Assembly: GCA_020249045.1 (NCBI GenBank) | Contig: JADCGK010000164.1 | Location: forward strand, 1-44,304 | Direction: 5' to 3' | DNA from: Azospirillum sp. | Lineage (GTDB): Bacteria > Pseudomonadota > Alphaproteobacteria > CACIAM-22H2 | Length of the DNA: 44,304 nucleotides | In this document: positions 13,074 to 27,632 of the stretch, piece by piece | Layout of the letters: the number at the start of each line of letters is the position of its first letter | How positions within the stretch are numbered: position 1 is the stretch's first letter | Notes under the pieces: generated by a model | The model's input: only the letters and a program-made list of their open reading frames with translations | Told to the model about the DNA's origin: nothing | Database searches by the model: none | Position numbers and translations under genes: made by a program

Positions 13074-13922
13074 TCAAGGCGCCCGCAGGACCGCGGCGCA
13101 CTGGACAGGCAGTTTCGGGCGCGGCGGCCCGGTTTGAACGCGGGGGGCCGCGCGCGCGGCCTCCGCATCGCGGCGGCGGCGTTCGTCGGCGTCGAGGAAC
13201 CACCAGTCGAGCGTCGCATCGCATCCGTCGCCCGGCGGCGGAGCCGCCTGCTGCACGCAATCGGGGCTCCCGGCGGGGCACACCAGGCGGACGTGGAAAT
13301 GTTCGTTGTGGCCGCGCCAGGGGCGGATCTTGCGCAGCCAGGCGCGGTCGGGGCCGGCCGTCTCGCACAGTTTTCGCTTGATCGCGAAATGCACGAGAAT
13401 GCGGTCCACGCGCGGATCGTCCGCGGCCATGCGCAACACGCGCGCATGCGCGTCGCGCCATCGCGCGGGATCGACGGTTCGCTCGTCGGGCGTCGTCAAC
13501 TTGACGATCGCGATGTCCTCGCGCTCGGTCGGGGCGAGGCGCGGCTTCGGGTCGAGATTGAACCAGATGTCGACGTCGAGGCCGTTCTGGTGGCTGCCGT
13601 GCAAACTCGCCATCGGCCCGCCGCGCGGCTGGGCCAGATCGCCGACGTAAAGATCCCCGAACCCGGACGCGCGCGCCCGAGCCCCCATATCCTTGACGAA
13701 CGCCACCGTCGTGGGATGGCCCCAATGCCGATCGCGCGAAACGCGCACGGCTTGATAACCGGGGCCTTCCGTCGGCAATGCCTCGGCCCCGGCAATGCAG
13801 CCCGCGGCGGGACCGCCGAACACGCGCGCGGGGCCCGGTGTGGGGGCGCGCGCCTCGCTCCACTCCTTCCCGTGCGCGGGCACCGCCAGCGCCGCGAGCA
13901 TCAGCGCCACGCTAAGCCGCAT
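13074..13922 (-). CDS. mepA: penicillin-insensitive murein endopeptidase, M74 family
   Basis: Periplasmic LAS-type metallopeptidase that cuts D-Ala–meso-DAP cross-links in peptidoglycan. From the ATG at 13920-13922 the protein has 282 residues and a signal peptide (MRLSVALMLAALAVPAHGKE). The zinc site motifs are GSHQNGLDVDIWF (His and Asp) and HNEHFHVRLVCP (His-x-His). A C-terminal Cys pattern (CVQQAAPPPGDGCDA) matches MepA. An upstream ATG at 13991 would displace the signal peptide. The 5' end overlaps the ABC-F gene by 11 bases, so it is probably translated from the same transcript. Confidence 0.92.
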   Translation of the reverse strand: MRLSVALMLAALAVPAHGKEWSEARAPTPGPARVFGGPAAGCIAGAEALPTEGPGYQAVRVSRDRHWGHPTTVAFVKDMGARARASGFGDLYVGDLAQPRGGPMASLHGSHQNGLDVDIWFNLDPKPRLAPTEREDIAIVKLTTPDERTVDPARWRDAHARVLRMAADDPRVDRILVHFAIKRKLCETAGPDRAWLRKIRPWRGHNEHFHVRLVCPAGSPDCVQQAAPPPGDGCDATLDWWFLDADERRRRDAEAARAAPRVQTGPPRPKLPVQCAAVLRAP

Positions 13923-15774
13923 CGGCTTCCTCCAACGCTTGCGCTGCGGCGAGCCAACGTGCCTCGGCCGCATCCATCGCCGCAACCGCATCCTTGTGGC
14001 GCTTTGCGAGATCGGCGGCCTTGGCCGGATCGGCGTAGACCGCCGGATCGGCGAGTGCCGCGTCGAGTTTCGCCTTGGCTTCCGTCCGCTTGGCGAGATC
14101 GGCTTCGGCGGCGGCGAGTTCCTTGCGCAAGGGACCGAGCGCCGGCTTCGGGCGCGGCGCCGGAGCGGCGACCGATGTCCGCGGCTTTTCGTCGGCCGCG
14201 CGTTGGGCGCGCCGCTCGGCCAGACAATGCGCGCGATATTCGCCGAGATCGCCGTCGAACGGCGCGACCCGCCCGCCCGAAACCAGCCACAGCCGGTCGC
14301 AGGTGAGTTCGAGCAGACTCCAATCGTGCGTGACCAGGATGACCGCCCCGGCGTAATCGCCGATCGCGGCGACCAAGCGCTCGCGGCTAGCCATGTCGAG
14401 GTGGTTGGTGGGTTCGTCGAGGATCAGCAATTGCGGCCGGTGCGCGGTCGCGAGCGCGAAGGCGAGCCGGGCCTTTTCCCCGCCCGACAGCTTGCCGGTC
14501 GGCGTTTCGGCCTTTTCGCCGGAGAATCCGAACCGCGCCAGACGCGCGCGCAACTGCTCGTTCGTGTCCTTGGGCCGCAGGTCGCCCAGATGCAGCAAGC
14601 CCGAGCGCGCGAGGTCGAACTCCTCGACCTGATGCTGGGCGAAGAAGCCGACTTCGAGATTGCGCGCGCGCGTCTCGCGCCCGTCCATCGCCGACAGCCG
14701 GCCCGCGAACAGCTTGGCCAACGTCGATTTTCCGTTCCCGTTGGCGCCGAGCAGGCCGATGCGGTCGTCGGGATCGAGGCGCAAATCGATGCCCTTGAGG
14801 ATCGGCTTGCCCGGTTCGTAGCCCACCGAGGCCTTGTCGTAGACGATCAGCGGCGGCCGCGGCAATTCCGGTTCGGGAAATTCGAAGCGAACGGTTTCCT
14901 CGTCGCGCTCGACGACGATGGGCGTGAGCTTGGCCAGCGCCTTCAGGCGCGATTGGGCTTGGCGCGCCTTGGTGGCCTTCGCGCGAAACCGGTCGACGAA
15001 GGACTGCATGTGCTTGCGCTGCGCGTCCACCTTCGCGGCCATGGCGGCTTGCTGGGCGAGACGCTCCTGGCGCTGGCGCTCGAAGGATTCGAAATCGCCG
15101 GCGTAGAGCGTGAGCTTGCGGTGTTCGAGATGCAGGATATGCGTGCAGACCGCATCGAGAAGCCGGCGGTCGTGGCTGACGACCAGCAGCGTGCCCGGCC
15201 ATTTGCCGAGGTGATCTTCGAGCCACAATGCGCTTTCGAGGTCGAGATGGTTCGTCGGCTCGTCGAGCAGCAGGACGTCGGGGCGTGCGAACAGGACCGC
15301 GCCCAAAGCCACGCGCATGCGCCAGCCGCCCGAGAAGTCGGCGAGCGGACGGGCTTGCGCGCGCGAATCGAACCCCAAACCGGCGAGGATCGACGCCGCG
15401 CGCGCGGGCGCGGAATACGCGTCGATCTCGGCGAGCCGGACGTGAATATCCGCGACGCGCTCGCCGCTCGCCCCGGCCTCCTCTTCGGCCAGCAGCGCCG
15501 CCCGCTCGGTATCCGCCGCCAGCACGAAATCGAGCGGGGTTTGCGGACCGCCGGGCGCCTCCTGCGCGACCCAGCCGAGTTTGGCGCGCTTGGGCAACGC
15601 GACGGCGCCTTTGTCGGGCGCGAGCACGCCGCGCAAGCACGCGAGCAGCGTCGATTTGCCGGCACCGTTCCGGCCGACGAGGCCCACGCGCTTGCCGTCG
15701 GGGATCTGGACGGTCGCGTCCTCGATCAGCGTCAGGCCGGCCACACGCAAGGTCAGGGAGTCGAAAGCGATCAT
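13912..15774 (-). CDS. ABC-F family ATPase, YheS-like
   Basis: Cytoplasmic twin-ATPase protein of 620 residues without membrane segments; ABC-F proteins act on the ribosome. The first cassette has Walker A GRNGAGKST (34-42), signature FSGGWRMR near 147 and Walker B LLLDEPTNHLD (168-178). The linker (about 225-285) is a charged helical pair with KHMQSFVDRFRAKATKA. The second cassette has GANGNGKST (343-351) and FFAQHQVEEFD, a stretch typical of YheS. A C-terminal coiled coil rich in Ala, Glu and Lys covers the last 80 residues. It is not a transporter despite the fold. It is divergent from the IMPase gene across 43 bases and followed by mepA. Confidence 0.9.
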   Translation of the reverse strand: MIAFDSLTLRVAGLTLIEDATVQIPDGKRVGLVGRNGAGKSTLLACLRGVLAPDKGAVALPKRAKLGWVAQEAPGGPQTPLDFVLAADTERAALLAEEEAGASGERVADIHVRLAEIDAYSAPARAASILAGLGFDSRAQARPLADFSGGWRMRVALGAVLFARPDVLLLDEPTNHLDLESALWLEDHLGKWPGTLLVVSHDRRLLDAVCTHILHLEHRKLTLYAGDFESFERQRQERLAQQAAMAAKVDAQRKHMQSFVDRFRAKATKARQAQSRLKALAKLTPIVVERDEETVRFEFPEPELPRPPLIVYDKASVGYEPGKPILKGIDLRLDPDDRIGLLGANGNGKSTLAKLFAGRLSAMDGRETRARNLEVGFFAQHQVEEFDLARSGLLHLGDLRPKDTNEQLRARLARFGFSGEKAETPTGKLSGGEKARLAFALATAHRPQLLILDEPTNHLDMASRERLVAAIGDYAGAVILVTHDWSLLELTCDRLWLVSGGRVAPFDGDLGEYRAHCLAERRAQRAADEKPRTSVAAPAPRPKPALGPLRKELAAAEADLAKRTEAKAKLDAALADPAVYADPAKAADLAKRHKDAVAAMDAAEARWLAAAQALEEADAA

Positions 15775-15817: not shown

Positions 15818-16600
15818 ATGACCGACGAAATCGCCCGCAAAACCCTGGCCGCCGCCGCGATCGCGCGCGCCGCCGGGGACCTCCAGCGCAAATTCTTCGC
15901 AGATCGCGCGTCGATCGGCATGACCTTCAAGGGGCCGCAGGATTACCTGACGGCCGCCGACGGCGCGGTCGAGAAACTCGTCATGGGCATGATTCGCGAA
16001 GCCTTCCCGGCCGACGGCGTGCTGGGCGAAGAGACAGGCGGCAGCAAGGATACGCGCGCGCTCTGGGTCATCGATCCCATCGACGGCACGGCCAATTTCG
16101 CGACCGGCATCGCGCATTTCTGCATTTCGATCGCCTACGTCCATGAAGGACGCGAGGAGATCGGCGCAATCTACGATCCGATGCGCGACGAACTATTCTT
16201 GGCCCGGCGCGGCGCGTTCGCCACGTGCAACGGCCGCCCGATGAAGGTTTCGGCGACGACCGAGTTCGCGCGCGCGCAGGTCGAACTCGGTTGGTCCTCG
16301 CGCCGGCCGATCCGCAGCTACACCGAGATCGTGGAGCGCACGGTCGCGGCCGGTGCTTCGTTCCGGCGCGCGGGCTCGGGCGCGCTCGGTATCGCCTACG
16401 TCGCCGATGGCCGCTCGGACGGCTACGCCGAAATCCACATCAATTCGTGGGATTGCCTCGCCGGCATCGTGATGGTGCGCGAAGCCGGCGGCCGGACCAA
16501 CGATTTCCTCGGCGCCGGCGGCCTGGACGAGGGCGCGCCGATCCTGTGCGGCAATCCGACGATCTACGTGCCGCTCGGCAAGGCCGCGGGATTGCTCTGA
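15818..16600 (+). CDS. inositol monophosphatase family protein
   Basis: Mg-dependent phosphatase of 260 residues with the complete IMPase signature: LTAAD (44-48), GEE (70-72), the metal-binding IDPIDGT (85-91, D86 and D89) and NSWDCLAG (W211-D212). These enzymes act on inositol-1-phosphate, on 3'-phosphoadenosine 5'-phosphate or related phosphates, and on histidinol phosphate; sequence alone does not separate them here. The next gene starts one base after its stop codon, so they form an operon with the AtuA-like pair. Confidence 0.88.
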   Translation: MTDEIARKTLAAAAIARAAGDLQRKFFADRASIGMTFKGPQDYLTAADGAVEKLVMGMIREAFPADGVLGEETGGSKDTRALWVIDPIDGTANFATGIAHFCISIAYVHEGREEIGAIYDPMRDELFLARRGAFATCNGRPMKVSATTEFARAQVELGWSSRRPIRSYTEIVERTVAAGASFRRAGSGALGIAYVADGRSDGYAEIHINSWDCLAGIVMVREAGGRTNDFLGAGGLDEGAPILCGNPTIYVPLGKAAGLL

Positions 16601-16601
16601 T

Positions 16602-17858
16602 ATGCGCCTTGCGCACGCCGGGCGCGGCGGCAGACCGGACGAAACGAAGGAAGCGCTGGTCCATCTGACCGCGGCGCCCGGTCCGCATTGCCTGATGCTG
16701 CGCCTCGCGTTGCGCGACGTCGAGCGCGCGCTCGCGCCGATCTTGATCGAATGCCTTTCCGGCCGTGTTCGCTTGGCCATCGAAGTTCCGGCGGGCGATC
16801 CCGCCGCGGTCGCGCATGCGGTCAACGCGCTCGCGGCCAAGCTCGGCCGCCGCCGGCCGCGCGTGGGCATCGTCGACGGCGGCGATCTGCTGGCCACGCA
16901 AGGCGGCGCCGGACTTCTGGGCGTGCCGTGCGACCCGCCCCCGCCCCCGGACTCCGTGCTTGTCGCCGCCCATGTGCGGTTCGGCGCGGCGCCGCTGCTG
17001 GCGCTGTTCGCCAAGGGGGCTGAGATCATCGTGAGTGGTCCGCTGACGCCCTCGGCGACCGCGATCGCCTTCGCGCGCTACGCCCATCGCTGGCCGGCCG
17101 AAGATCACGCACGGATCGCTGCTGCGGCGGCGGCCGGCAGAATCCTGGCCGCGGGCCCCGCAGCGGTCGGCGGCGACTTGTTCGATCCGGCGATCGACGC
17201 CCCGCGCGCGATCGGCTTGCCGATCTGCGACGTCGCCGAAGACGGCGCGGTCGTGTTCGAGAGCACGCGCGATCCGCCGCCGGTCGCGGGCCTCGCACTC
17301 GCCTTGCTCGACGGCGTCGAGGATCCGCGCGCCTGGATCGAACCGGACGTCAGGGTCGATCTCGACGACGCGACGTTGATCGGCGCGCGCTTGTCCGGTG
17401 TGCGCGGCGACGCGGCGCCGGGCCATCTGCCCGGCACGCTCGTCTTCGAAACGGGTTTCGTGGGCGAGGCCGAACTCGCCTATGGCGGCACAGGTGCGGC
17501 CGGGCGCGCGATCCATGCCGCCCGTGCCCTCGAGACGCGTCTCGCGGGCATGCCCCCCGACATGCGCGTGCGGATCGAAATCGTCGGTCTGGACGCCGCG
17601 ACGCGCGGTTGCGGCGCCCGGGCGGCGGATCTCGCCGTGGTGCCGGGCAAGGACGTGCGGGTTCGTCTGGCCACGCGCGCGCCCACGCGCGATGCGGTCG
17701 ACGCGGCGTTGGCCGAGTTCGCCGCCGTCGCCGCGTTCGGGCCGGCGGGTGCGGGCGGCGTGCGTCAAAGCGCGCATCCCGAGCGGCGGGTCTCCATCGC
17801 CGCGATCCCCGCCGCCTTGACGACCGCGCGTGCCTCGTTGCTGGAAGCGGACGCATGA
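16602..17858 (+). CDS. AtuA/DUF1446-like protein, shortened N-terminus
   Basis: A divergent member of the acyclic terpene utilisation AtuA family (418 residues; typical members are about 450-600). Family resemblance is strongest in the middle and C-terminal parts: EIIVSGPLTPSATAI (usually a V-I-T-G-R-V-A-D-like stretch), IGLPICDVAEDG, DPRAWIEPDV, FVGEAELAYGG and the late GPAGAGGVR. The usual N-terminal glycine-rich G-x-G-x-G-F nucleotide-loop-like start is missing and replaced by about 60 poorly matching residues, so activity may differ. AtuA proteins accompany acyl-CoA carboxylases in terpene and related catabolism, but none is nearby. The stop overlaps the next small gene by ATGA. Family membership is my reading of motif similarity, without a search. 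Confidence 0.7.
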   Translation: MRLAHAGRGGRPDETKEALVHLTAAPGPHCLMLRLALRDVERALAPILIECLSGRVRLAIEVPAGDPAAVAHAVNALAAKLGRRRPRVGIVDGGDLLATQGGAGLLGVPCDPPPPPDSVLVAAHVRFGAAPLLALFAKGAEIIVSGPLTPSATAIAFARYAHRWPAEDHARIAAAAAAGRILAAGPAAVGGDLFDPAIDAPRAIGLPICDVAEDGAVVFESTRDPPPVAGLALALLDGVEDPRAWIEPDVRVDLDDATLIGARLSGVRGDAAPGHLPGTLVFETGFVGEAELAYGGTGAAGRAIHAARALETRLAGMPPDMRVRIEIVGLDAATRGCGARAADLAVVPGKDVRVRLATRAPTRDAVDAALAEFAAVAAFGPAGAGGVRQSAHPERRVSIAAIPAALTTARASLLEADA

Positions 17859-18220
17859 GCGCGCTCATCCCCTTGCGCCTGCTGGCCCACGCGCGCGCGC
17901 GCGCGGTCGGCGGCTCGCTGACGATCGCACTTGCCGTGCGCGACCCGGCCGATTGGCGCGCAGTCCGCGCGGCCACCGGCGCCGCGCGCGTCGGCGCGTG
18001 GCTGTCGGCGCTGCGCCCGCGGACGGTCAAGCGGGTCGAGCTTGCGGGTCTCGCAAGCTTCCATTTCCGGTTCGAAGCGGCCGCGGGCGCGGGCCGCGGG
18101 CACGATCTCGCCTTCGATCCCGACGGCCGCGCTTTCGCCCAGAAACTGCTGGAAATGCCGGTCGAGATCGACCGCGCGCGGGCCGAGACGTTGACAAGCG
18201 CCGTCGCCACCCCCATTTGA
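17855..18220 (+). CDS. AtuA-partner small domain (AtuA-like ferredoxin-fold type)
   Basis: A 121-residue cytoplasmic protein with no membrane segment or signal. Its pattern (LRLLAHARARAVGG…, then VELAGLASFHFRFEAA, then DPDGRAFAQKLLEMPVEI) matches the small domain that is fused to, or encoded right after, AtuA proteins, where the usual form is A-R-S-G-D-K-G followed by L-P-N-L-x-A-L-N-F. Here the S-G-D-K motif at the start is degraded to RARAVGG. It starts by ATGA overlap with the shortened AtuA-like gene, supporting a two-subunit unit. Function unknown; probably substrate binding or assembly. Confidence 0.6.
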   Translation: MSALIPLRLLAHARARAVGGSLTIALAVRDPADWRAVRAATGAARVGAWLSALRPRTVKRVELAGLASFHFRFEAAAGAGRGHDLAFDPDGRAFAQKLLEMPVEIDRARAETLTSAVATPI

Positions 18221-18228
18221 CGGCCGGC

Positions 18229-18807
18229 ATGGACCTCCAGCAAATCCTCGATCTCGTCCGCGAACAGGGCAACGCGATCTACGTCTTGGTCGCGACCGGC
18301 GCGTTTTGGAACTCGATGCTGTTGCCCCTTTTTGCGGGCTACGCCGTTCATCTGGAGGCGCTTGGCTACTGGCCCACGGTCGCGGCGGTGTTCGCGGGCG
18401 GCGTGATCGGCGACGAGGTCCGGTTCTTCCTCGCCCGGCGCTTCGGCGCGCAATTGTTCGACGCGATGCCGCGATTGCGCGCGGGCATCGAAAAGGCCGC
18501 ACGCGTTGTGGAACGGCATCAATGGTGGATGATGTTCGTCTACCGTTATCCGCACGGCGTGCGGGGGTTGGCCGGGTTCGCCTTCGGCCTCTCGAACATG
18601 CCGCGCTGGCGCTTCTCGGCGCTCAACGTCGCCTCGGCCGCCGTCTGGGCCAATCTTCTGGTCGGGGTCGGTTACGGCTTCGCGCACGTCTCCGACAAGG
18701 CGCTGGGCGAAGCGGCGACGAAAACGGCGCTCGGCTTGCTCGTCGCGTTTCTGGCGCTGGCGTGGTTCCTGTCCAAGCGCCTGGAGGAAGCGGTCGAACG
18801 CCGCTGA
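18229..18807 (+). CDS. DedA family membrane protein
   Basis: Inner-membrane protein of 192 residues with hydrophobic segments at about 18-40, 45-65, 105-125, 130-155 and 165-185. It shows the DedA motifs IGDEVRFFLARRFG (G-D then R-R) and FVYRYPHGVRGLAG (an R-x3-G-x-R element in the re-entrant loop). DedA proteins include undecaprenyl-phosphate and phosphatidylethanolamine flippases and affect membrane homeostasis. The ATG at 18229 lies 8 bases after the AtuA-partner stop; a longer open frame from 17830 lacks merit because it overlaps that gene. Its stop abuts the converging pentapeptide-repeat gene with no gap. Confidence 0.85.
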   Translation: MDLQQILDLVREQGNAIYVLVATGAFWNSMLLPLFAGYAVHLEALGYWPTVAAVFAGGVIGDEVRFFLARRFGAQLFDAMPRLRAGIEKAARVVERHQWWMMFVYRYPHGVRGLAGFAFGLSNMPRWRFSALNVASAAVWANLLVGVGYGFAHVSDKALGEAATKTALGLLVAFLALAWFLSKRLEEAVERR

Positions 18808-20130
18808 TCAAAGGGCCGCGTCCAGCCCGTTCGTGCCGCGCGTATCCGCCCCGTCGATGTTCGCCCCGCGCAAATCGGCGCCGCTGAAGTCGCAATCCAG
18901 CAGGATCGCGTCCTTCAGATTGGCCTCGCGCAGATCCGCGCGGCGCAACGTCGCGCCGGTCAGATCGGCTTTGTGCAGATTGGCTCCGCGCAGATCCGCG
19001 CCGGTCAGATTGGCCTCGCGCAACCGCGTGTTCCAGATGCGCTGGCTCATCGTATCGACCGGCATGGGCGACATGTCGGCGTCGCGCAACTTGGCGCCGG
19101 TCATCGTCGCCTTGTCCAACCGCGCGCCCTGCAACTTCGCCGAGACGAGATCGCAATTCGCCATGAACGCCGACGAGAAGTCGGACATTTGGAAAAAGCC
19201 GCCGGTCAGCTTGGCGTCGCGCAGGATCGACAGGCTCAACCGTCCGGCCGAAAGATTGACCCCCGGCGCGTTCAACGACGCCAGGTTCACCCGCTCGAAA
19301 TCCGCCTGCGCGCCGCCGCGCCCCTCCGTCTTCAGCCATTCGAGATGGTCGACGAAGATCTGCTGGATCGACTTTTCGAGGCTGTCGATGTTGACCGGCA
19401 GCACCGCTTTGGACGTATCCACCCGCGCCAGATCGCGCGTGCCGAAATTGGACGCGGTGAGGTCCGCACCGTCGAGATTGGTGTTGTCGAGCAAGGCGCC
19501 CGACAGCGTCGCCCCATGCAGGATGCAGTTCGACAGATTGGCGTTGGTCAGGTCGGCGCCCGACAGCACGACGCCGGAAAGATCGGAGTTCGACAGATCG
19601 GCCTCGCGCAGAACGGCACCGCGCAGAATGCAGCCGGTCAGGTCCGTGCGCGGACCGAACACGCGGCTCATCTTCGCGTTGGTCATGTCCGCGTTGTTGA
19701 ACTTCGAATCCGTGATGACCGCGCCTTGACGCTGGTTGTTGTGGTACGAAAAATTGCCGTCCTTGTCGCGGACGATGATGAATCCGTCGCGGATGTCCGC
19801 CCCGCTGAGGTTGGCGCGTTCGAGATTCGCGCGCTTCAACTGCACGCCGCGCAAATCGGCTTTCGACAGATCCGACTCGTGCAGATCGCACCCCGTCAGA
19901 TCGGCGCCGAACAGGTTGGCCCGACTGAGCTTGGCCCCGCCGAAATCGGACTCGCACAGATAGGCGCCGACGAGTTCGGCCTCCGAAAGATTGCGCCCGC
20001 GGAAATTCATCCGCTCGGCGATCTTGAAGGACAGCACCAGCCGCATCCCGCCGGTCATGCCCTTGGCCATTCTCTCGTGCAGGCCGACGGCTTGGTTGAT
20101 TTCCTGCTGACTGACTTTCGAACTGCCCAT
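18808..20130 (-). CDS. pentapeptide repeat protein with interrupted solenoid
   Basis: A 440-residue protein largely made of A(D/N)LXX repeats, which fold as a right-handed quadrilateral beta-helix. An N-terminal helical stretch (1-40, VSQQEINQAVGLHERM) precedes repeats at about 42-114. A hydrophilic loop (115-137, DGFIIVRDKDGNFSYHNNQ) leads into repeats 138-233. A helical linker (234-277) contains IFVDHLEWLKTEGRGG, resembling the H-x2-W-L-x4-G insert of some bacterial pentapeptide proteins, followed by repeats 278-350, a short spacer with WNTRL, and repeats 372-430. No signal peptide or membrane helix. The ATG at 20128-20130 is favoured because the upstream extension is low-complexity Arg/Pro. 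Biochemical role unknown; gyrase protection (Qnr/MfpA-like) is possible but unsupported. Confidence 0.88.
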   Translation of the reverse strand: MGSSKVSQQEINQAVGLHERMAKGMTGGMRLVLSFKIAERMNFRGRNLSEAELVGAYLCESDFGGAKLSRANLFGADLTGCDLHESDLSKADLRGVQLKRANLERANLSGADIRDGFIIVRDKDGNFSYHNNQRQGAVITDSKFNNADMTNAKMSRVFGPRTDLTGCILRGAVLREADLSNSDLSGVVLSGADLTNANLSNCILHGATLSGALLDNTNLDGADLTASNFGTRDLARVDTSKAVLPVNIDSLEKSIQQIFVDHLEWLKTEGRGGAQADFERVNLASLNAPGVNLSAGRLSLSILRDAKLTGGFFQMSDFSSAFMANCDLVSAKLQGARLDKATMTGAKLRDADMSPMPVDTMSQRIWNTRLREANLTGADLRGANLHKADLTGATLRRADLREANLKDAILLDCDFSGADLRGANIDGADTRGTNGLDAAL

Positions 20131-20198
20131 CCGTCGGACCCGCGTGGTTGCGAATGGATAATGCGCCGGGCGCGCGCGGTGGTAAAGTCCCGCACGGA

Positions 20199-20318
20199 AT
20201 GGCCCATGTGAAGGTCTTCGTCGCCGCCGCCGTCTTCGGACTCGCCGCCTATGCCGTGGTGCTGGGGCTGGTCCGTTGGTCCAATTCGGCCGGTTTGCTG
20301 GAGTGGCTCGCCCGATGA
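20199..20318 (+). CDS. possible 39-residue single-span membrane protein
   Basis: A short frame encoding MAHVKVFVAAAVFGLAAYAV and continuing to WSNSAGLLEWLAR. It has one hydrophobic helix (about residues 5-25) flanked by Lys and Arg, the layout of a small membrane protein. No strong Shine-Dalgarno is seen, though ACGGA lies just upstream. It is divergent from the pentapeptide-repeat gene (68 bases). Its stop overlaps a further 34-codon frame, which in turn overlaps the acyl-CoA synthetase start, so it could act as a translational lead-in. Coding status is uncertain. Confidence 0.35.
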   Translation: MAHVKVFVAAAVFGLAAYAVVLGLVRWSNSAGLLEWLAR

Positions 20319-20415
20319 CCACCGCCCTCGCCGTCGCAGAGCGGCGTCGCACGGAAAATTTTGCGCCCGAGCCGGCAGACCATGGCTCGGCCGCCGGGCC
20401 TTCGGGGAGGCGCTT

Positions 20416-21900
20416 ATGAACCTCGCAGCACATCTTCTGCGCAATGCCTTGCGCGATCCGACCGGATCGGCGCTCGGTCTCGGGGACGCGGTCGTCGCGG
20501 ATTGGGCCGGCATGGCGCGCGATGCCGCAAGCCTGGCCGGGGGGCTGCGCGCGCGTGGCCTCCAACCCGGCGCGCGTGTGGCCATCGTCGCCGCGAACTC
20601 ACCCGACTATGCGCGCGCGCTCTACGCGATTTGGTGGGCCGGGTACGCGGCCGTCCCGATCAACGTGAAGCTCCATCCGAAAGAACTCGCCTATTGCCTC
20701 GATCATTCGGGGGCCTCGCTGATCCTGCATTCGCGCGACCTCGGGGAGAACGTGGCCGCGGCGGCGCGCGAAGCGGGTGTTTCGGCGCAGGCGATCGAGT
20801 TCGGCGGGGCCCATTGGCGCGGCTTGCACGGCGAGGCGGCGGCGTTGGCCGAGGTCGCGCCCGACGATCTCGCCTGGTTGTTCTACACCAGCGGCACGAC
20901 CGGCCGGCCAAAGGGCGCGATGCTGAGCCACCGGAACATTTTGGCGATGGCGACGAGCTACTTCGTCGATATCGACCCGCCGCAATTCGGCGGTGCGATC
21001 GTGCATGCGGCGCCGATGTCCCACGGTTCGGGCCTATACATGTTTCCGACCTTGGCCATCGGCGGCACGCAAGTGATCCCCGAAAGCGGCGGCTTCGATC
21101 CGGCCGAGATCTTCGCGTTGTGGCGGCATTGGCGTCACGTCACGATGTTCGCGGCCCCGACGATGGTCAAACGCTTGACCGAAGCGCCGGGTGCGGCACC
21201 CGGCAATCTGCGAGTGGTGGTTTTCGGCGGTGCGCCCATGTACGTCGCCGACCTGAAGGCCGCCATCGGCACGTTCGGCTATCGCTTCGCCCAGCTCTAC
21301 GGCCAGGGCGAAAGCCCGATGTGCATCACCGGCATGACGCGCGCGACGATCGAAGCCGCGCACGTCGCCGGCGACGACGCGATCCTGGGCTCCGTCGGCA
21401 CGGCGCAGAGTGTCGTCCAGGTCCGGTGCGCGCCCGACGGCGAAGTGCTTGCGCGCGGGGACAGTGTGATGCGCGGCTATTGGCGGGACGACGCGGCGAC
21501 CGCGAAAACGCTGAAGGACGGTTGGCTGCACACCGGGGATGTCGGGGCCATCGACGCGCGCGGCTACCTCACGCTCAAGGACCGCTCGAAGGACCTGATC
21601 ATTTCGGGCGGTTCGAACATCTACCCGCGCGAGGTCGAGGAGATCCTCCAACGCCATCCGGCCGTCGCCGAAGTTTCGGTGATCGGCGAACCCGATCCCG
21701 AATGGGGCGAGAACGTCGTGGCGTTCGTCGTGCGCCGCGCCGGCGCCTCGGTCGACACCGCCGCCCTCGATGCGCTGTGCCTCGCCAACATCGCGCGGTT
21801 CAAGCGCCCCAAGCGCTACGTCTTCCTCGAGGCGCTGCCCAAAAGCGCCTACGGCAAAATCCTCAAGACCGAACTGCGCCGACTTCTGAAGGGGGAATAG
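20416..21900 (+). CDS. class I adenylate-forming acyl-CoA synthetase
   Basis: AMP-dependent CoA ligase of 494 residues that activates a carboxylic acid through an acyl-adenylate to its CoA ester. Core motifs are YTSGTTGRPKG (157-167, P-loop), LYGQGESPM (the A5-type Y-G-x-x-E position, with Gln before the Glu), LHTGDVG and the hinge KDRSKDLIISGG. The conserved lysine sits near the end in SAYGKILK. The ATG at 20416 has GGGGAGG six bases upstream; the longer open frame to 20251 is rejected. It is directly followed by an SDR gene with no gap. The substrate is probably a medium-chain or aromatic acid, but the binding pocket cannot be read reliably. Confidence 0.9.
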   Translation: MNLAAHLLRNALRDPTGSALGLGDAVVADWAGMARDAASLAGGLRARGLQPGARVAIVAANSPDYARALYAIWWAGYAAVPINVKLHPKELAYCLDHSGASLILHSRDLGENVAAAAREAGVSAQAIEFGGAHWRGLHGEAAALAEVAPDDLAWLFYTSGTTGRPKGAMLSHRNILAMATSYFVDIDPPQFGGAIVHAAPMSHGSGLYMFPTLAIGGTQVIPESGGFDPAEIFALWRHWRHVTMFAAPTMVKRLTEAPGAAPGNLRVVVFGGAPMYVADLKAAIGTFGYRFAQLYGQGESPMCITGMTRATIEAAHVAGDDAILGSVGTAQSVVQVRCAPDGEVLARGDSVMRGYWRDDAATAKTLKDGWLHTGDVGAIDARGYLTLKDRSKDLIISGGSNIYPREVEEILQRHPAVAEVSVIGEPDPEWGENVVAFVVRRAGASVDTAALDALCLANIARFKRPKRYVFLEALPKSAYGKILKTELRRLLKGE

Positions 21901-24735: not shown

Positions 24736-26025
<1,290 letters not shown>

Positions 26026-26083
26026 GGTCCTCTCCTTCCGAGTTTTCGGCCCCTCGGGGCCACCCCCCGAACGACGTTCGGCA

Positions 26084-26198
26084 TGTAAATATCTTGACGT
26101 TGCAGCGCCGAAACGCAAATGCGAAACGGCCTTAAATCGCGTAAATGCGTCGTTCTCTTTGCAGACGGGCGGAGAATATTGTAAAGTTTGTAAATATC
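26084..26198. promoter_or_regulatory. cluster of G(T/C)AAAT-type repeats between aceA and its regulator
   Basis: Between the two divergent starts lie TGTAAATATC at 26084-26093, GCAAATGCG at 26115-26123, GTAAATGCG at 26141-26149 and TGTAAATATC again at 26189-26198. The last copy overlaps a pair of TTGTAAA heptamers spaced nine bases apart (26179-26185, 26188-26194). All read the same way on the plus strand in otherwise GC-rich DNA. The ten-base exact duplicate, with one copy near each gene, suggests binding sites for the adjacent ScfR/RamB-type regulator; RamB sites in actinobacteria also contain TTTGC/GCAAA cores. Confidence 0.55.
26159..26187 (+). promoter_or_regulatory. possible promoter of the ScfR-type regulator gene
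   Basis: TTGCAG (26159-26164), a 17-base spacer and TAAAGT (26182-26187) form a plausible sigma70-type pair 24 bases before the start codon. The TTGTAAA repeats lie over the -10 box, which would suit autorepression. The match to consensus is only moderate. Confidence 0.35.
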
Positions 26199-26210
26199 GG
26201 AGTGTCGCCC

Positions 26211-27632
26211 ATGGCCCGCAAAACGCTGCTCGGCAACAAGATCCGTCGCCTGCGCCAAGCTCGCGACCTGACCCAGGCCAAGATGGCCGAGTTGCTGGGC
26301 ATCTCCGCCTCCTACCTCAATTTGATCGAGCACGACGAACGGCCGGTCACGGTGTCGCTGCTGCTCAAACTCGGCAAAAGCTTCGACGTCGATCTCGCCG
26401 ACCTGTCCGACGAGGACGACCGCAAACTCGCTGCAGGCTTGCGCGAGGTGTTCGCGGACTCCACGCTCGACGGCGGCGAGGTGGGCGCCGAGGAAATCAA
26501 GGCACTGGCCGAGGCTGCCCCCACCGCCGCCAAGGCGATCCTGGAACTTTATCGGGCCTATCGCCTCGCGCGCGAGGACGCGCAGTCGATGACGCTGGGG
26601 TTGGGCGGGGGACGGACGCGCAAGACCGTGCTGCCGGCCGAGGAATCCCGCGACTTCTTCCACGACCGAACCAATTACTTCGACGAATTGGAGCGCGCGG
26701 CGGAAGCGTTAGTGCGCGGTGCGGCCCTGCCGCCGGGCGAACCCTGGCGCGTGATGCTCGACTACGCCAAGGTCAAACACGGCATCGCGGTCGAGATAGC
26801 CCCCCCCGAAGCGCTGGACGGCGCCGTGCGCCGCTTCGACGCCAAAACCCGCACGCTGCGCCTGTCGGAGATCCTGCCGCGCGCCTCGCGCCGGTTCCAT
26901 ATGGCCTATCAGATCGGGTTGGTCGAAGCGCGCGACGCCGTGGACGGCATCGTCGCGGCCGCGAAGCTCGCCTCGCCGGAGACCGAAACGCTCGTGCGCG
27001 TCGGGCTCTACAACTATTTCGCGGGCGCGGTGCTGATGCCCTATGCGCCCTATCTCGAAGCGGCCCGGGCGTTGCGCTACGACATCGAGCGTCTCGCCCA
27101 GCGCTTCGGGGCGAGCTTCGAACAGGCCTGCCACCGGCTCGCCACGCTCCAGCGCCCGCAGGACAAGGCGATCCCGTTCTGGCTCGTGCGCACGGACGTC
27201 GCGGGCAACGTGTCCAAGCGCATTTCGGCGGCCGGCTTCCATTTCTCGCGCTTCGGCGGCTCGTGCCCGCGCTGGATCGTTCACGAGGCCTTCGCAAGCC
27301 CGGGACGGATCCTCACGCAGATCGCGCGCCTTCCCGACGGCGCCACGTTCTTCTCGATCGCGCGCACGCTGACCAAACCCGCCCCCGGCTTCGGCGAGCC
27401 CGCCTCCACCCTCGCGATCGGGATCGGCTGCGACATCGCGCGCGCGGGCGAACTCGTCTACGCCGACGGCTGGGACCTGCAATCCCGCGTGCGAGAGGTC
27501 GAAATCGGCGTCGGCTGCCGGCTATGCGAACGCGAGAACTGCCGCCAGCGCGCCTATCCGCCGCTGCAACACCGGCTGGACATGGACCCGGCGGTCAAGG
27601 GCGCGTCGGCTTACGCGTTCAAGAAACGCTGA
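26211..27632 (+). CDS. ScfR/RamB-type short-chain fatty acyl regulator (XRE + ImmA/IrrE-like + DUF2083)
   Basis: Transcription factor of 473 residues. An XRE-type HTH occupies about residues 8-62 ([20 protein letters not shown]). A degenerate ImmA/IrrE-like domain spans roughly 140-290. The C-terminal domain ends in [17 protein letters not shown] followed by a Cys cluster ([12 protein letters not shown]), typical of short-chain fatty acyl regulators. The metalloprotease motif H-E-x-x-H is not present (FHMAYQIG at that place), so it is probably a sensor domain only. Related RamB proteins control isocitrate lyase genes, and this one is divergent from aceA, so that is its likely target, with an acyl-CoA as effector. 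The start was set at the ATG of MARKTLLGN. Confidence 0.9.

Follow-up and report, generated by a model that had tools for sequence, protein, structure and literature searches.

The window analyzed here is a stretch of 44,304 nucleotides from contig JADCGK010000164.1 of Azospirillum sp.; it contains a pair of overlapping genes encoding a reduced AtuA-like large subunit and a small AtuA_ferredoxin-like partner, directly behind a gene of the inositol monophosphatase (IMPase) superfamily. Sequence comparisons demonstrated that the pair is homologous to the AtuA family, that residues shared throughout this family have been lost, and that the genes are conserved, syntenic and under selection across a genus; from these, we infer that the lyase activity was lost. 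The explanation that we prefer, with a probability of roughly 0.4, is that an AtuA/citramalate-lyase-type complex lost its lyase chemistry and would now be a non-lyase partner of the inositol-type phosphatase. An earlier sequence-only reading of this DNA had described a reduced AtuA pair and proposed a repurposed AtuA module. Its observation holds, more strongly than first put, and its proposal is partly supported: genus-wide conservation, purifying selection, the loss of family residues in both subunits and one very long stem branch agree with it, the new role itself being inferred.

Family membership and residue loss in the large subunit

The large subunit scored 135 bits against the AtuA profile PF07287 (cut-off 22.8), with protein residues 40–405 aligned to positions 58–429 of the 437-position profile, and the protein encoded at 16602–17858 was the sole match to this profile in the window's genome. 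A search with DUF1446, which we take to be a former designation of this family, had been proposed as a check of the assignment; the strong match to PF07287 bears the assignment out. An alignment was made of nine full-length variants and the canonical proteins; a column counted as a family column if at least 90% of a set of 40 canonical proteins agreed in it, and residues are numbered according to L067. Because 35 of the 40 canonical proteins were chosen by their N-terminal motif, the invariance of this motif is partly circular, which does not apply to the E41, ERT and GY columns. The motif pattern did not match L072 and L084, which therefore lie outside the canonical set; the long fused forms or distant subtype L039–L044 also lie outside the 40, and L043 was included in alignments A1 and A5.

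Of the 116 family columns, 54 were lost in 9/9 variants, 18 were partly kept and 44 were kept. The residues lost from all nine include D17, E41, E45, R46, T47, N88, D121, N151, Y153, D177, H207, E210, C211, Q214, K251, T263, E266, Q267, Y270, E271 and K315. In particular, the polar core formed by R174/D177, H207, E210-C211, Q214, K251, E266-Q267 and Y270-E271 was found in 40/40 canonical proteins, where it presumably has a catalytic role, and was gone from every variant, save for R174, which was kept in one of the nine. The N-terminal family residues G13, F14, E41, E45-R46-T47 and G62 were likewise absent from 9/9 variants. The glycine-rich N-terminal segment had been described as missing, which is partly right: its G-F is gone, but a degenerate HAG-x-G-x-RP stretch aligns with the canonical GxGAGFxxDR, and its absence is not clear-cut. 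The variants also carry a deletion of an internal block (canonical ...ERTLA...RRDP..GY...) and are 414–419 amino acids in length versus 436–471 amino acids in the canonical set. A mis-called start was ruled out, as the window holds no earlier in-frame start. The C-terminal scaffold was retained, with R302, R313, R324, G329, R353, R355, E372 and P381 kept in 9/9 variants and G380 in 8/9; glycine, proline, alanine and arginine make up most of the surviving family residues, many of which lie in the C-terminal half.

Small subunit

The small subunit scored 34.9 bits against PF23544 (cut-off 27), and this cut-off was exceeded in 9 of the 11 genomes of the genus. The lack of the usual S-G-D-K motif, which had been noticed in the window protein, was found throughout: 33 of 35 canonical loci had [SAT]GDK, whereas none of the ten variants did. 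After the removal of one artefact column, 13 of 30 family columns were lost, including those of GDK, which are partly circular since the canonical partners were found by this motif. The predicted fold, taken from the one confident model of five, was most similar to the citramalate lyase chain 9evf_B (Foldseek E-value of 0.012, TM 0.55/0.62). Superposition of the model on 9evf_B, the top match, gave a VIA Z of 9.3 and a root mean square deviation of 3.4 with 98/105 aligned, other matches reaching a Z of 8.5.

Comparison with known AtuA-type systems

The two-gene AtuA systems on plasmids of Neorhizobium, Skermanella, Loktanella and Martelella have both profiles (PF07287 and PF23544) and the large-small order in common with the variant, and a short gene overlap is usual in these pairs, as it is here. 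In contrast, the variant has lost 54/116 large-subunit columns together with the small-subunit GDK, has an IMPase gene upstream, and has no adjoining regulator or transporter. The neighbors of the four canonical plasmid pairs examined were LysR or GntR regulators and ATP-binding cassette (ABC) or tripartite ATP-independent periplasmic (TRAP) transporters. The observation that no carboxylase or terpene genes lie near the pair is thus true but not unusual, as these four canonical pairs have regulators and transporters instead. Geranyl-CoA carboxylase and other atu genes were not found among the window proteins scanned (4, plus 20; some window frames lay outside the scan), and a terpene operon is not supported. 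The AtuA protein of Thauera, the sequence of which presumably belongs to PF07287, shares the family name; however, it is a 615-amino-acid protein and not a split pair, and the terpene and carboxylase genes that surround it have no equivalent here.

The only solved relative found was CmlA of citramalate lyase (9erq and 9evf, with its small subunit), a distant homologue of the canonical AtuA large subunit (E-value of 6.8e-07 with the canonical profile). The structure table gives the title of 9evf as 'Citramalate lyase - ADP - pyruvate complex'. In the aligned stretches, R-x2-D-P, E-C and Y-E-x2-D-P were common to canonical AtuA and 9erq/CmlA, whereas the window protein had P-x2-P-S, A-A and D-G-x2-D-P. 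By analogy, the comparison suggests that the AtuA/citramalate lyase family releases acetate from 3-hydroxy acids. One report describes a DUF1446 gene without known function downstream of methylaspartate ammonia-lyase (PMC4682846).

Conservation and selection within the genus

The host genus is Tagaea or a close relative, which is placed in the Rhodospirillales in the NCBI taxonomy, and the closest named record to the window's variant is from Tagaea sp. CACIAM 22H2 (L024; 71% identity). In a survey of 41 genomes, the variant was found in 10 of the 11 genomes of the genus. The exception, G009 (86% complete), also lacked a match to the neighboring ABC-F gene and is uninformative because the assembly is silent at this site. 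With a profile built from nine variants, the genus members scored 521–714 bits. The variant was not found outside the genus, where the best scores were 162 bits among 23 genomes of the order, 176 bits among 385 genomes of the class and 192 bits among 398 genomes of the phylum; these sets overlap, and those of the class and phylum are samples of larger groups, so rare members may exist elsewhere. No relatives of the variant were found in the viral contigs searched. AtuA-family proteins as such were widespread in the class and phylum genomes searched, and in the tree, the variants formed a single clade (support 100/100), the stem of which measured 2.02 changes per column.

The reading frames of the pair were open in 10/10 genomes, all of which kept the 4-base overlap, as ATGA in seven and GTGA in three; the coupling by ATGA that had been pointed out in the window lies at 17855–17858. 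For pairs with identities above 68%, the ratio of nonsynonymous to synonymous substitution rates (dN/dS) was 0.05–0.33 for the large subunit and 0.04–0.35 for the small subunit, with some dS values near saturation. The pair is under purifying selection. A standard AtuA at this site in close relatives would have pointed to recent decay, and none of the relatives has one. The reduced pair is fixed across the genus and is not a case of local decay.

The IMPase gene was located 1–6 bases upstream of the pair in 9/9 assemblies that reach it, and the linkage that holds is IMPase-AtuA-small subunit. Where the assemblies reach, the flanks of the locus were the ABC-F gene upstream and genes for a pentapeptide protein and an acyl-CoA ligase downstream.

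The neighboring phosphatase

The IMPase scored 179.3 bits against PF00459 (cut-off 27), and the GEE, DPIDGT and WD motifs, which we take to be the metal-site motifs of this enzyme, were intact in 9/9 copies of the genus. The protein fell below the NCBIfam equivalog cut-offs for SuhB (175.7/332 bits), HisN (140.6/275 bits) and CysQ (95.4/229 bits). Of 12 genomes from other genera of the family, 9 had a best match with 54–62% identity. An iolC-type kinase/aldolase gene lay directly upstream of the orthologue in 3/9 (L146, L149 and L150), and an SBP_bac_6-type solute-binding protein was encoded beside it in 4/9 (L146–L149); neighbor profiles were run on the L149 and L150 proteins and on one unrelated L147 frame, and the other neighbors were judged by their first residues. 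The remaining loci had different neighbors, and the L148 and L150 assemblies end near the gene. AtuA was not found near any of these nine orthologues. Across L146–L150, the orthologue adjoins iolB/iolC and/or a transporter with PhnS2/PhnU2-like subunits.

These sister-genus loci, which resemble the window locus in their 54–62% identical IMPase, differ from it in lacking the AtuA pair, just as the window locus has no iol gene beside its IMPase; 5 of the 11 genomes of the genus carried iolC at another location. The sister-genus arrangement is possibly a unit for the uptake and catabolism of phosphorylated inositol or sugar, and the IMPase is plausibly an inositol- or sugar-phosphate phosphatase. 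The earlier suggestion of a phosphorylated substrate thus gains indirect support from a fixed IMPase neighbor with orthologues beside inositol genes in some sister genera.

Proposed role of the pair

We propose that the two proteins, whose genes overlap and which are homologous to a two-subunit enzyme, form a heteromeric complex. Its origin lies in the AtuA/AtuA_ferredoxin family, to which citramalate lyase belongs by distant homology. Within the genus, both subunits were stripped of the ancestral shared residues, while selection preserved their scaffold, the translational coupling of the two genes and their fixed position after an IMPase gene that looks intact. A non-catalytic mode appears most likely: the pair would still fold and associate, its old pocket may accommodate a small carboxylate or phosphate ligand, and it may serve the IMPase as a sensor or regulatory partner, the IMPase itself dephosphorylating a monophosphate of the inositol or sugar type. 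A more specific version is rather doubtful: both subunits of a former acetate-releasing lyase would have lost catalysis together, and the resulting two-subunit pseudoenzyme would have been recruited in this genus as an obligate regulator that senses a ligand and controls an inositol-phosphate-type phosphatase, joined in some of the genomes by a sulfurtransferase, the rhodanese.

Several points weigh against a non-lyase partner of the phosphatase. The physical partnership with the IMPase, the ligand binding and the regulation are assumed. In sister genera, the IMPase is found with no AtuA pair and hence does not depend on one there. The AlphaFold2 model of the large subunit had a predicted local distance difference test (pLDDT) value of 36.7, in which the pocket was not visible, and only one of the five small-subunit models was confident (73.5 versus 34–43). 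Finally, new invariant polar residues were present in both subunits, namely H5, R55, E61, C110, D111, R180, D237 and others in the large subunit and H70, R81, H83, D84 and R92 in the small subunit.

AtuA-family proteins are mostly annotated by name alone. By ancestry, the pair is a member of the AtuA family, but it lacks the residues by which that family is recognized, and it should therefore not be called an AtuA lyase; the same warning applies to the name terpene-utilization protein. A scaffold without the shared polar residues, kept genus-wide, marks which residues are likely to be catalytic, and the variant suggests that an AtuA complex can be retained for a non-lyase role. Should the link to the IMPase prove functional, the locus would represent the coupling of two pseudoenzyme subunits to a phosphatase.

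Alternative explanations

The main rival to a non-lyase partner, a possible but less probable one, is a new enzyme in which the old pocket was rebuilt for a different reaction, probably on the IMPase product or a related polyol, acid or phosphate. It would account for the new residues that are invariant among the copies (16 large-subunit and 8 small-subunit positions), among them the small-subunit GAGRGHDL with R81, H83 and D84 and the large-subunit H5, E61, C110-D111, R180 and D237, and it fits the constant location between the same flanks and the catabolic iol genes that adjoin some sister-genus IMPase orthologues. However, invariance by shared descent is expected among only 9–10 related sequences, and the new invariants were not enriched at the former family-conserved columns (p of 0.56 and 0.44). 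Columns without the family residue had an entropy of 0.88 versus 0.98 for the remaining columns in the large subunit (p of 0.18) and 0.84 versus 0.85 in the small subunit (p of 0.44), and the kept family columns were constrained (0.46 and 0.38, respectively). Since the positions stripped of the family residue are as variable as the background, an abandoned active site is favored over a rebuilt one; the new fixed polar residues in both subunits are what makes a new enzyme possible.

The sequence-only reading had suggested that the pair, together with the phosphatase and a lipid-flippase-type protein, may act on a membrane-linked substrate as a four-gene unit. The same strand and the gaps of 1–8 bases in the window and in relatives of its clade are consistent with such a unit, but the DedA gene lay within 8 bases of the small subunit in only 4/10 genomes (the window, G001, G006 and G010). 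A single-domain rhodanese gene separated the two in G002, G003, G004 and G005, and approximately 2.4 kb, including opposite-strand frames, separated them in G007 and G008. This last gap (L027 and L030) contained a rhodanese gene plus LysR-like and luciferase-like oxidoreductase frames on the opposite strand, these two named by eye. The rhodanese thus intervened in 6/10 genomes in total (L029:10521-10850; L031; L032; L033; L027; L030). In G005 (L031), it was in frame with the small subunit without a stop, forming a 226-codon frame on a short contig, as a result of either fusion or sequencing error. Additionally, the DedA protein, which scored 51.9 bits against VTT_dom (cut-off 33.9), fell well short of the undecaprenyl-phosphate-transporter models (24.4 of 250 bits). 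The four-gene order was not shared by most genomes, DedA offers a weak basis for a link to membranes or lipids, and we regard the four-gene unit as unlikely. None of the IMPase, DedA or this rhodanese was found near other AtuA genes at 46 loci, mostly with 1.5-kb flanks. At the ABC-F orthologue loci of six other-genus genomes of the family, neither AtuA nor DedA was found beside the gene, and the only trace of IMPase was a weak partial match (30%) approximately 4 kb away (L179); insertion and rearrangement are indistinguishable from these sites.

A very divergent yet canonical AtuA-type lyase, in which the apparent loss reflects misalignment across the deletion, is slightly less credible still. 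The profile matched over most of the length and the C-terminal GPAG region was kept, but the losses occurred where the alignment is firmly anchored: the window protein's W164, G179, G191 and P207 were invariant in the joint alignment, and the R/D and H-L-x-E-C-x-x-Q columns near these anchors were lost in 9/9 variants, R174 being kept in one. Moreover, both subunits changed together. A relic decaying neutrally, which the loss of family residues might suggest, is largely ruled out by frames that are open in 10/10 genomes, the preserved overlap and a dN/dS well below 1.

Gene organization of the window

The four co-directional genes with short gaps were located as originally described, with coordinates, strand and spacing all correct (Table 1). 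One base (16601) separates the IMPase and large-subunit genes, the two subunit genes overlap by 4 bases, and 8 bases (18221–18228) lie between the small-subunit and DedA genes. All four proteins exceeded the curated Pfam cut-offs in the profile search.

Table 1. Genes of the AtuA-like locus and other features of the window.
Feature	Positions	Strand	Evidence	Remark
IMPase (inositol-monophosphatase superfamily)	15818..16600	+	PF00459, E-value 1.4e-52	GEE, DPIDGT and WD intact
Reduced AtuA-like large subunit, 418 amino acids	16602..17858	+	PF07287, E-value 4.2e-39	
Reduced AtuA_ferredoxin-like small subunit, 121 amino acids	17855..18220	+	PF23544, E-value 2e-08	
DedA/VTT-domain membrane protein	18229..18807	+	PF09335, E-value 1.3e-13	Adjoins here, loosely linked across the genus
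ABC-F ATPase, divergent neighbor	13912..15774	-	tblastn synteny, orthologue search	Fixed flank in the genus
Pentapeptide-repeat protein, long, convergent flank	18808..20565	-	Translation; synteny	
Isocitrate-lyase-family gene divergent from short-chain acyl-CoA regulator (ScfRs domain)	24736-27632		Pfam	

The ABC-F protein was named from its two-ATPase layout, without a profile run. The downstream pentapeptide-repeat protein was kept across the genus, with an identity of about 79–82% in the synteny comparison.

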